NCBI GenBank assembly: GCA_964035545.1
Contig: OZ037767.1
Coordinates: 19,353,628-19,417,627, forward strand
DNA: 64,000 nt
Direction: 5' to 3'
From: Bugula neritina
Taxonomy: Eukaryota > Bryozoa > Gymnolaemata > Cheilostomatida > Bugulidae
Shown: one piece after another, positions 3,532 to 62,326 of the stretch
How the letters are laid out: each line of letters opens with the position of its first letter
Position numbering within the stretch: position 1 is the first letter of the stretch
Position numbers and translations under genes: made by a program
The notes under the pieces: generated by a model
The model's input: only the letters and a program-made list of their open reading frames with translations
The model's database searches: none
What the model was told of the DNA's origin: nothing

Positions 3532-4200
3532 ATGAAAATCATAAAGTTTCTGATAACGTTTTGCTTTCTTATTATTTGTGCTGCAAATGCAAGATTTGTA
3601 AGTATAATATTGGTTTATTTGTTCAAGTATTGCTTGATGGTTTATATTTTAAAAAGCTTTTATAATTCTAACTGATGAAAAACAGTTTTTGACTTGAAGT
3701 AATATAAAATATAATTTTGCTTTGATAAAATTTTGACAATGAAACGGTAAATCCAAAATAATTATGTTTTAGTTATTTATAATTTCATTAGAACTAGTTA
3801 GTATTAATGTATTCAAATTGTGATGAAAGCATGTTTAAACGCTTGTAGTTGTGTGTCACATAATAATCTGCATTTTAGTTAGTGGGAAAGTCTGTGCTGA
3901 ACATCAGTAGAAGAAACCATATTCGAAATAGAAGAGGTCAGTTTATAACTAAATTTAGTGTAAAAAATAAACTTTTAACACTCCATTACTATGCTTATAA
4001 TTGTGCAGTTTATTATTTGTTGTAAACATATTTTAATGAGCAACCTTTTTGTATATTATATGTAAATTAATACATTTAATAAATATTACTTTATACATAA
4101 TTCTCATTTGACAGGAATAGCTGAAAATGTAAAAGATACAGTCACTGCTTCTAGCAGAGAAGTACTGCTAGAAGTGGCTAGGAAGTATGCGTTACCATGA
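3532..4200 (+). CDS. A1: secreted peptide precursor, family A
   Basis: Three exons, 3532-3597, 3879-3936 and 4115-4200 (TGA), join with phases 0 and 1 to give 69 residues. Exon 1 is a signal peptide (MKIIKFLITFCFLIICAANA, then RF at its end). Exon 2 is a 19-residue basic propeptide ending HIRNRR, a convertase-type site. The codon split by intron 2 gives Gly. Exon 3 encodes the putative mature peptide: it starts GIAENV, ends SSREVLLEVARKYALP and looks amphipathic. All three exons are intact, and two other copies share the structure, which supports a real gene. The family is not recognised and secretion is inferred. A polyadenylation signal AATAAA lies at 4313-4318. Confidence 0.72.
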
Positions 4201-4312
4201 CATCAATGAAGTTGTTTATATGACCTAAACTTTTTGAGCTAAATGCCACATCAACCTCGCTTTCGTCATTTTTTGATATGATAATTGTTATGTATAATTA
4301 AAACATATTTAT

Positions 4313-4318
4313 AATAAA
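4313..4318 (+). terminator. A1 poly(A) signal
   Basis: AATAAA about 110 nt after the A1 stop codon. The matching signal is conserved at A2 and A3. Confidence 0.5.
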
Positions 4319-4609
4319 TTTATTACTATTAGAGTGAGTCTATATATGCCTTATTTATATAAATTTTCCATTTCCTGATGAAATGGTTATTAGGCTAAGG
4401 AATATTGCTCTAAATGTGGTTAGAGAGTGCCTAGTTGCAGCTTGTACATGTGTAAAGTAATATACAGCTGTAATATGATATACATAGCAACTAACCCTTA
4501 CATTTTAATAGAACAGAATCTCTCTTCCAACTTGGTTGTAAATCAAAGAATATATTAACGCATACTAAAGAAATGAATATTTTTAAATGCTTAACATATG
4601 TTTTATTAC

Positions 4610-4939
4610 AAGGATGTCCAACAGGAGGCCCAGGGCTGAATGCGGGCCCCCAGCTTACATTAATATGGCCCTCAAAGGCATAACAAATAAAATTATTTTT
4701 CTCACAGATGCGAATTAAAGTAGAAAACCACCTCCTAAAAGTTTTATTTTTATATGTGCTAAAAGCATTCAGCTTACAGTAACTATTGGGACTTAATCAT
4801 GTAATGATTCATAAGAATTTGAAATAAAGTCACTTGAAAAAACTGATACTGTGGCCCCCAGCTGAAGTTTCCAATGTCGCCCTCGCCACAAAATATTTCA
4901 TTTCCGTGGCCCTCAATCTGAAAAGGTTGGACACCCCAG
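4610..4939. mobile_element. hAT-like nonautonomous transposon
   Basis: Terminal inverted repeats read AGGATGTCCAACAGGAGGCCC on the left and, in reverse complement, TGGGGTGTCCAACC then a diverged GGCC stretch on the right. The element is flanked by a direct repeat TTTTATTAC (4601-4609 and 4940-4948), which fits an 8-9 bp hAT target-site duplication. The interior has GGCCC-rich blocks and no transposase frame. The termini resemble the widespread hAT end GGTGTCCAACC. Confidence 0.72.
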
Positions 4940-4949
4940 TTTTATTACA

Positions 4950-59192: not shown

Positions 59193-59476
59193 ACTAAATT
59201 ACAAAGAATTTCATTTTTCTGTTGGCTGAATTTATTCTTAAATAATAAAATTCAAGCTTTGGCTTTGTGCATCCTAATTCATACACAACAGAGCTGTGCA
59301 TAGAGTCTTTTTATAGCCAAGCTTGGCTTTCATCAAAGACTAGCATTACATAATTTCAAGATTGCAGAATCGGTAGCAGCAAATGTATTTGTTTATGACA
59401 TAGTTGGAAGTGGATATCACACAGTCAAGTATTTTATAGACCGACATAGTAGATACTAGTAAATCACTGCAATTGA

Positions 59477-60672
59477 ATGGCTAGGATAAGACATATAGTT
59501 CTTCTATTCCTCTATCTGGCTAACTTCTACATCTTGAAAGTAGGACTTGTAAGTGCTTATGATATATTATACATACGGTTTAGTATATAGTATGCTTTAT
59601 TGTAATATAATGCCAAACATTTTTCTTATGCTGATTTGTGAAATTTGCGATACCAATCTTTGCATTTGTAGTATTGAATAAGGAGAAATACTCCTTTAGT
59701 TGAATATATGTGAAATGCAGTTATATATTATGTCAATATTATAAACAATTTTCAAGTAGAAAACGGAGTACATTGATTAAACTTTCATTGCTGATTCAAC
59801 TTTTTACAGAATTTAATATTTTTTTAAGTAATAATGAAATTTCTGTGTACGGCTGCAGGGAAATTAAAAATTAATTTTTTTTAAAGCATGGAGAATTATT
59901 AAATTGCACTGAAAATAGTGAGTAACATGAAAAGAGCCTTTACAAGAGTCATTGAAAAGACAAATGTTTAAAAATATGTTTTATTTTGGTTAAAATAATT
60001 TTATGATGACCAATTTAATCATGAGTAACTTGTGGTAAGAGGTTTACACCAGTGTGGTCAGCCAACAGCCTTTGACAGCCCATATTCTGAAAAACTCTTT
60101 TAGTTTAAACTGATGATAACCATTTTATTTGAATAATAATTCTACAAAGTATGTTACTAATTCCAGATGACAACTAATTTGGGAGATCCAAGCACAGGGA
60201 TGAAGTCTGGAAGTTTCAGCTTAACCATGCGTGGTGACTGTAATCAGATGCTAGTGGCTTGTCCAATGATGGCTCCTTTTACAATGATTAAACGAATCAG
60301 AAGATGTAAAACAAATATTACTTTTAAGTTTTCATTTTCATACAGATTTACCTTTGAGACTTTAATTGCGCCACCCTCATGGGATATTGTACAAATTCAC
60401 GCACGCACGCACGCACGCACGCACGCACGCACGCACGCACGCACGCACGCACGCACGCACGCACGCACGCACGCACGCACGCACGCACACACGTTACTTT
60501 AAAAACTAATTCATGGAAGTATACAAGTAATCTCTATTTTTTACCACTTACCAGTACTCTTTAGTAAAGTCATTCCAATCTTATTCGTTTGACAGCATTT
60601 ACAGACAACCTACCTTTGGGGATTCAGCCAACTACACATCGAAGAAATTACAGGAAGTCAAGCACCTTATAA
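59477..60672 (+). CDS. C2: family C peptide precursor, truncated last exon
   Basis: Exons 59477-59548 (MARIRHIVLLFLYLANFYIL then KVGL), 60167-60305 (starts MTTNLGDPSTGMKSGSF, ends MIKRIRR) and 60596-60672 join in phases 0 and 1. The last exon matches C1 up to RKSSTL and then meets TAA (60670-60672) where C1 has the CAA codon for Gln. The product lacks the last 12 residues, including the QDILRRIA helix. It may be a pseudogene in the making or a peptide with only the basic N-terminal part. Intron 2 carries a CACG repeat that C1 lacks. Confidence 0.68.
60398..60492. repeat. (CACG)n tetranucleotide repeat
   Basis: About 23 units of GCAC in C2 intron 2; the C1 intron has only a CACACTTATATATAC stretch at this place. 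Confidence 0.95.
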
Positions 60673-60803
60673 AATATTTTGAGAAGAATAGCTAATGATA
60701 GATACTAATTTAGACAGAGGATACTTTTAGTTATACAAAATATACATTAAGAATATCTTTATTTTGACGTCTTTTTAGTCTTTTAAAGACAAAATAATGC
60801 CTA

Positions 60804-60809
60804 AATAAA
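60804..60809 (+). terminator. C2 poly(A) signal
   Basis: AATAAA about 130 nt after the C2 stop, matching C1. Confidence 0.45.
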
Positions 60810-61058
60810 ATATTGTGACATGATGTACAGGCGTTATTTTGTTTTGGTACTCAATATACTTCATGTGGTGTTTGTATATGATATATAGGGACAAACTACT
60901 AGTCATTGATGTGAATCTGAATACAACTTAGCCGTTGAAAAAAGCTTCTTACAGCAGATTGTAACTCATGCAGATGTTTTTACTCCTTTGGAATCTGAAT
61001 TTAAAATACAATAGAGATGACGTTCCCCTATTGCCAAGATGCTCAGGAAATTCCTTTT

Positions 61059-62326
61059 TTATTGTGATTTCTCAAAATAAAAATTTAATGAAATACAAAT
61101 AGCAGACCATAAAAATATATAAACATATTTTTTCCAATATGATTTTATTTGACGCTGAAGAAAATAAAAAAAACAAAAACAATGATTAAACATTAGACTG
61201 AGCATGTAAGCATGAAGTAGCACTAAAATTTGGCTTTTATGATTATGTTTTTGGTCCCTTCTCTGTGTAAACCCAAAAGGTACGTTGCCAGTGTGTGCTG
61301 CAAAGCAGATTATATTACTTATAGCAAGCATTAAAATATTATATTATATAATTCATCGTATGTGCTTATATATAACAGGATAAATTAATTAAAAATAAGT
61401 GTTCAGCGCCTTTGTTATTGAGTGATAATTTGAAAAAGCCTAAAAACGTAATATCATATCTACAGGTAATATTGTATCTGCCAGGTAATATATCTACCAG
61501 GTAATATATCTACCAGGTAATATTATATCTACAGGTAATCTTACATCTTCGAGCTCGCCTAAACATTGCAGGATACGACATGCTGTACTGGAATCACTTT
61601 CTCCCATGTCCTTACAGGTGGCAATTTGTTCTCATTATTTGTTGAGTTGCTTTCTTTTAATTCTGTTTCACTATTTTGACGGTAGGAACTTAGTATTGAC
61701 TAAAATCCATAAAAGTAATCATATAACAAATTTTAAATGAACTCTACAATCTGAAATGTGTACATATAATAAATAGTGAAATAGAAGATATATTAGTAGA
61801 GTACAAAATATAAATGTAGCGATCAAGAAACAGTAAGGTAATAAATTTTTTTATCAAGTTGTGCATAAAATTACATAAATCAGGTTTTATTTATAGTGGT
61901 ATAATTGCTATCTACAGCATTTCTGGCACCCTTAATGAAATTATTTGAAAACTTTGGTTCATTTTCATATTTTGTTACAATAATATTTAATCAGCTTTCA
62001 TAAATTGCAACATTTTATACTTTTACAATTCAGCACTTCGGAAGGTGGTACTGTACAAAAGACATTCTAATAAACATGCAGCTACTATATAAAAAGCTAG
62101 ATAAAGCAGTTTTTCTGTAATGAATTTGTTTAAATTAACAAATTTATTGCTTTTAAGTTGCATCATTTTACCTATTCTCTATTTTCGTCTGTTATATAAT
62201 ATTATATTTAGACTTTAGAGTGTAAGGAAATAAAAGCTGATTACTTTGTTGAGAATAGAATAAAATGAACTCACCCTGTTAGCTTGCACGGCAGAGACAT
62301 AGTAACATAAGGGTGTTCACCTTCAT
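61059..62326 (-). pseudogene. F2: broken copy of F1
   Basis: Exon 1 (62326-62275) keeps MKVNTLMLLCL but has lost 17 nt of the signal peptide core and shifts frame. Exon 2 (61699-61545) is five nt shorter than in F1, shifts near its end and meets TAG before the convertase site. Exon 3 (61297-61059) keeps SHTGNVPFGFTQ and then differs from F1 by an indel, continuing RRDQKHNHKSQ and a hydrophobic tail. Two independent frame lesions make a functional precursor unlikely. Confidence 0.68.
61445..61540. repeat. tandem repeat beside F2 exon 2
   Basis: Units containing CTACCAGGTAATATAT, counterpart of 17755-17834. Confidence 0.6.

Follow-up and report, generated by a model that had tools for sequence, protein, structure and literature searches.

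A clustered family of candidate secreted prepropeptide genes on chromosome 3 of the bryozoan Bugula neritina

A 2016 survey of Bugula neritina peptides, self-described as the first for bryozoans, reports 11 precursors and gives the FDSIG precursor as a B. neritina transcript obtained at full length by rapid amplification of cDNA ends (PMC4990251). This pedal peptide/orcokinin-type system is the nearest known one that we met to the genes considered here, which lie in a 64,000-nucleotide stretch of B. neritina chromosome 3 (19,353,628-19,417,627; hereafter the window) and beyond it: as in BnFDSIG (PMC4990251), a secreted precursor with dibasic cuts is predicted, and types D, H, and I of the array resemble FDSIG in the core SF(DS)[IV]GN[GPA]PIG. 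FDSIG carries nine repeats in one frame, whereas each array gene carries one motif in a separate last exon. The insect Bomanins likewise form a tandem cluster encoding a signal peptide and a short, motif-bearing product; Bomanins bear cysteines, while the array last exons contain none except in the F tail, and we know of no sequence relation between the two. Neuropeptide F/Y and CRF/DH44-type hormones are alike in shape, with a Pro-bearing N-terminal part followed by a leucine-rich, helix-like tail, but the array genes lack a Pfam match to them, an RxRF-amide, or an amidated helix end.

The window holds 15 loci of six types (three of A, two each of B, C, D, E, and F, and two B/C fusion remnants). 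This is the number given by a prior reading of the DNA from its letters only (the sequence-only reading), which saw in them one fast-diverging superfamily of secreted peptides. The count holds, yet only nine loci retain a clean frame with GT-AG introns (A1, A3, B1, B2, C1, D1, D2, E1, and F1); one (C2) is truncated by a stop, and five (A2, E2, F2, and both fusions) are broken. The broken copies went unnoticed in that reading, as did an extra exon in D and the members outside the window. In flanking sequence covering 40 kb on the left and 200 kb on the right, the array continues to about +98 kb with five more genes (G, D3, I1, I2, and H), and a genome search with G led to a second cluster, 3.1 Mb away at 22.525-22.539 Mb, comprising J1, J2, K, and one J-like fragment. 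We propose that these loci would constitute a Bugula family of secreted prepropeptides that has grown through tandem as well as segmental duplication while some of its copies decayed.

The three-exon layout described by the sequence-only reading (signal exon, phase 0 intron, propeptide, phase 1 intron, short last exon) applies to A, B, C, E, and F, but not to D, which has four exons, the additional one being a 63-nt phase 0 exon. Exon 1 is hydrophobic and signal-peptide-like in types A-K, as judged by eye and by hydropathy scan. The pro-region is variable; in D, G, H, J, and K it contains the core DPVVATLxLDxxKLLP..SQ / TLEVxIRASDFxxK and a Pro- or Thr-rich linker. Except in J, the last exon, entered in phase 1, bears the motif [SN]-[HF]-x-G-N-x-P-x-G or a variant; a leucine-rich, helix-like tail usually comes after it. 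The motif strings quoted by the sequence-only reading are all present in the window, some of them taking their first residue from an intron-split codon. J and K have in common with D, G, and H the signal exon, the exon 2 start DPVVATL, and the exon 3 motif T-[LI]-E-V-x-I-x-[AV]-S-D-F, and the C-terminal part of K consists of GFSGNVNNPRFG and a tail.

Two comparisons address whether the types are related. The pattern acceptor-AG plus [HF]x(x)[GD]NxPx[GA], composed after the members had been seen and unmatched by A and the two fusions, occurs 15 times in the 100.5-kb array (10 in the window and 5 beyond), with no occurrence in 203.5 kb of flanks or in 20 shuffles; the second match of a first pattern search was due to chance. 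The last exons of ten types were also compared in 45 pairs against a null of 1340 acceptor-led flank open reading frames (ORFs), a pair being counted as strong when three or fewer null ORFs scored equal or better in both directions; the members had been picked by motif, and the test is therefore not blind. The sequence-only reading had allowed for motif similarity no better than chance, and 14 of the 45 pairs stood above the null (A-B, A-G, B-E, B-G, C-G, C-H, D-E, D-H, D-I, E-G, E-H, E-I, G-H, and H-I), which joins A-E with G-I. Together, the pattern counts and the pair test rule out a chance motif. F was borderline (0 and 13 null ORFs for E-F, 1 and 13 for C-F, 6 and 32 for D-F) and is placed by its motif and intron phase only, J is tied to the family by its middle exons only, and K, whose last exon did not join the others, is linked by exons 2 and 3 only. 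The tails that had been called similar in A, B, C, and E are so in A, B, and E, as well as G; C did not exceed the null against A, B, or E, although C-G and C-H did.

Gene G provides the best single proof of a family, bridging B and D by separate exons: it has 61% identity with B in the last exon (E 1.5e-9) and matches D in exon 2 (E 2.4e-4) and exon 3 (E 5.4e-4). On last-exon scores, intron phases, and this bridge, a single family is supported for A-E, and weakly for F. The family is undescribed in the libraries and literature searched, in agreement with the sequence-only reading, across protein, Pfam, NCBIfam, and PDB searches. Nothing scored over the curated Pfam cut-off for A-H and an older J model, or over the NCBIfam cut-off for five proteins, and the best PDB match, a flippase fusion protein (E 0.0046), was judged spurious; I and K were not scanned singly against these three libraries. 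No named protein outside Bugula matched in a protein search that reaches only relatives with short exact words in common, other bryozoan genomes lying outside the material searched, and no mention of the peptide strings or gene names was found in the literature.

Gene models from another B. neritina assembly bear on the exon joins. A D query against 5.8 billion proteins gave a single match, EB796_007243 of B. neritina, and when G, H, K (shortened), J2, E, and EB796_007243 were combined in a profile, the matches were EB796_007242 and EB796_003390, together with three Joint Genome Institute proteins, unnamed and of J and K type. D1 matches EB796_007243 over its full length; D3 is identical to it at 129 positions (148 to 148 residues aligned), and G to EB796_007242 at 105 (125 to 125 residues aligned), which puts D3 and G at a 13-16% amino-acid difference from the corresponding older models. 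In the EB796 annotation, AUGUSTUS was guided by hints from a published B. neritina transcriptome (PMC7576161), and because of these hints the older models back the predicted joins, short of proving expression.

The loci also look like constrained coding sequence. Exon similarity exceeded intron similarity in all eight paralogue pairs, which are not independent, with p<0.05 in four. The ratio of non-synonymous to synonymous substitution rates (dN/dS) was 0.21-0.69 in eight close paralogue pairs, C2 being entered as a shortened frame, and 0.34-0.35 in two D-H pairs; the I1-I2 value is void, as the I2 exon was misplaced. Pooling one hand-picked pair each of A, B, C, and D gave 31.3 differences over 272.5 synonymous sites versus 56.7 over 876.5 non-synonymous sites (Fisher test, p 0.013). 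The fast divergence claimed by the sequence-only reading is borne out only in part: the 13-16% difference between assemblies, from two genes with no control gene, agrees with it, whereas the dN/dS values indicate constraint.

The residues flanking the motif suggest how a product might be released. In A, B, C, and F, the motif is directly preceded by RR or RK, which lie at the phase 1 junction; basic residues follow it directly in D (GRRRR), E (ARK), and H (GKR); and the I precursor ends at the motif with Gly-stop. With J left out, the motif edge is marked in eight of ten types, by a dibasic site in seven and by a stop in I. From these marked edges we infer convertase processing: the secreted precursor would be cut by prohormone convertases at the dibasic site touching the motif, the Gly left at the peptide end would be amidated in D, H, and I, and the released peptides would act extracellularly as messengers within or between zooids or colonies. 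That the loci encode secreted, processed peptides is, on these features, most likely; that the peptides serve as messengers within or between zooids or colonies is our tentative preference, held at somewhat under even chances. Several points weigh against this interpretation. A dibasic site at the motif is absent from G and K, the motif itself is absent from J, and the structure model is poor (mean predicted local distance difference test score 49.5). A profile of A, B, C, F, and G matched EB796_007242 only, with no B. neritina protein found for A, B, C, or F, and the exon/intron difference was non-significant in four of the eight paralogue pairs. Finally, tandem arrays rich in broken copies are commoner for defence or reproductive proteins than for hormones.

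The strongest competing explanation is that the genes encode secreted defence peptides, antimicrobial or directed at symbiont or epibiont control, diversified by birth and death of tandem copies. We regard this as possible but on balance doubtful. It would account for the tandem and segmental duplication and for the broken state of 5 of the 15 window loci, fusions included, and it fits both the basic last exons of C (+5) and D3 (+8) and the 13-16% protein difference between the two assemblies. Set against this, net charges in the eight of ten types measured span -3 (B) to +8 (D3) and are 0 in A, G, and H, a mixture that speaks against a single common membrane-killing mechanism for the predicted peptides; only G has a hydrophobic moment exceeding that of shuffles at the 5% level (10/1000; C 61/1000); whole-gene dN/dS is below 1; and the Pfam scans gave no match to an antimicrobial peptide family. 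In its narrower form, a uniform cationic antimicrobial peptide is ruled out by the mixed charges, with only G beating shuffles and only C and D3 clearly basic.

It is unlikely, in our estimate, that the products are structural or adhesive proteins of the cuticle, skeletal matrix, or larval glue, with Pro-, Thr-, and Tyr-rich repeats and the last exon as a binding tail. K bears tandem repeats of the kind TTTRPSPSPWVPHHFS, the J last exon is rich in Tyr, Arg, and Thr, and D, E, and H have Pro-rich linkers; the K and J repeats are consistent with a matrix role. A, B, and C are nevertheless short and without repeats, and a matrix function would leave the dibasic sites at the motif edge without a role.

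Rated lower still is the idea that the FDSIG neuropeptide has one-copy relatives in D, H, and I. SF--VGNPPIGRRR aligns with SFDSIGNGPIGLKR, and at a lenient gap penalty of -8 D and H outscore all 1340 null ORFs and I all but 1; although these three types lack DS, they otherwise fit SF..[IV]GNxPIG. The comparison was nonetheless post hoc and made over ten types, of which B, C, E, F, and G fall in the tail of the null (10-28 of 1340 as good) and A and K well inside it (996 and 372). The DPVVATL core is absent from the FDSIG locus sequence retrieved, and each array precursor has a single motif as opposed to nine repeats in the FDSIG frame. Since FDSIG is a multi-copy precursor encoded about 8.4 Mb away, membership fails on the layout of one motif versus nine tandem repeats, and what is left is a resemblance. 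The FDSIG gene itself was located at 27770547-27770924 of chromosome 3, with nine peptide repeats, one reading SFDSIGNGQVELKR, as against eight mature peptides reported in 2016. A related scenario, which we consider a long shot, is a birth-and-death array of one-copy messengers from an FDSIG/pedal-peptide-like ancestor, in which a peptide copy would have moved to its own exon and been joined to unrelated pro-regions, cleavage switching from after to before the peptide; if true, such a split-off array could serve colony-colony or larva-adult recognition.

Least probable of all is that the similarity between types reflects convergence or shared low complexity with no superfamily, a view to which the 31 of 45 last-exon pairs not clearly above the null and the weak fit of F and of the K last exon lend something, and which for A-E and G-I is largely refuted by the 14 strong pairs, with the common intron phase and the link from B to D through separate exons of G also against it. 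A contaminant origin is ruled out, as the array lies within a 32.4-Mb chromosome beside a putative kinase ORF, which has a protein kinase domain in a domain scan and which we take to be LATS-type.

Individual loci in the window are as follows, in window coordinates. A1 (3532..4200, plus strand; exons 3532-3597, 3879-3936, and 4115-4200) has GT-AG introns and a clean frame, encoding a signal and RFLVGK..RNRR, then GIAENV..tail across the junction. A fusion remnant at 7575..7851 (plus) consists of a B-like exon 2 and a C-like last exon with an early stop; a second, degenerate and inverted, lies at 53623..53810 (minus), and a search for a signal exon at both fusions found none. A2 (12377..13049, minus) has three exons in frame, with an exon 2 donor of AT instead of GT. 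GT-AG introns and clean frames are found in B1 (14115..15229, plus; 14115-14177, 14943-15006, and 15129-15229), in C1 (15786..17042, plus; 15786-15857, 16470-16608, and 16930-17042), and, up to its stop, in F1 (17482..18607, minus; 18539-18607, 17835-17994, and a last exon from 17614 down). The exons of C1 and F1 were recovered by genome search, and F1, with the motif SHTGNVPFG, is the weakest member. E1 (21560..23165, minus) has its signal exon at 23100-23165, a second exon at 21754-21916, and its last exon at 21560-21657; a D-like exon 2 was not found within it. E2 (29037..29129, minus) is a last-exon fragment with an internal stop, adjoined by a TG/CA repeat of >500 bases (29171-29827) that is open in several frames. 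D1 (33210..34108, plus; 33210-33272, 33380-33442, 33614-33830, and 34017-34108) and D2 (37582..38527, plus; 37582-37644, 37752-37814, 37986-38196, and 38436-38527) each lie beside a minisatellite encoding SPTSHLHLTYI (35532-35906 and 39974-40369), and a similar array is found at ~79,600, beyond D3. A3 (56447..57128, minus; 57063-57128, 56719-56776, and 56447-56535) has GT-AG introns and a clean frame, and B2 spans 57915..58932 (plus; 57915-57977, 58645-58708, and 58832-58932). C2 (59477..60708, plus) is like C1, with a stop after ..KSSTL that precedes the helix-like tail, and F2 (61059..62326, minus) has a last exon from 61297 down and loses the frame of its signal exon near 62326.

The mix of intact and broken copies among these 15 loci is explained by duplicated blocks seen when the window DNA was compared with itself. 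The segments at 12.2-20.4 kb and 56.2-64.0 kb, which carry A, B, C, and F, duplicate each other in largely collinear order (78-87% DNA identity per piece); 3.2-8.2 kb, with A and a fusion, recurs inverted at 53.3-57.5 kb; the D copies occupy 33.0-35.8 kb and 37.4-40.3 kb; and the E last-exon region is common to 20.8-21.7 kb and 28.2-29.2 kb. Pieces of a Gypsy-like retroelement (minus strand, 46639-51767, with reverse transcriptase and RNase H frames at 47.4-48.6 kb) lie between the D copies and the A copies, where the window is richer in GC. Two leucine-rich-repeat fragments ~340 bases apart occupy 10764-11291, and a third piece, related to them at 72-77% DNA identity, is found at 51.9 kb.

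Beyond the window, in the same coordinates, lie G (71,490-72,748), D3 (76,599-77,587), I1 (83,667-84,731), I2 (91,301-92,385), and H (95,401-98,062); the H exon 3 donor has more than one candidate, and the proteins used differ by a few residues at that join. Nine types (D, G, K, J, E, C, A, F, and I), though neither B nor H, served as queries for genome searches and turned up no convincing member elsewhere; only the best candidates were scored, so member counts are lower bounds. The best match off chromosome 3 (E 0.0085) is a proline run, and most other weak matches were not read. Elsewhere in the assembly, a full-length mitochondrial COX1 copy lies inside a chromosome (C6, 11174072-11175412), scoring near the mitochondrial one; it is perhaps a nuclear copy of recent date, or else a join made in assembly. 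Another COX1 of mitochondrial type, interrupted by ~2.8 kb, is found at 13159-17283 of the 65-kb contig C196 and perhaps derives from another organism (a 2020 draft has a labyrinthulid bin), and the COX1 on C17, perhaps a bacterial one, has no TGA codons.

Little of the peptide biology of bryozoans has been charted, and Bugula is described as host of the bryostatin-making symbiont (PMC11480708). In this array, one peptide exon is seen combined with different pro-regions. An undescribed, clustered, and still-changing peptide family of this kind would offer a handle on settlement, colony recognition, defence, or symbiont control in Bugula.

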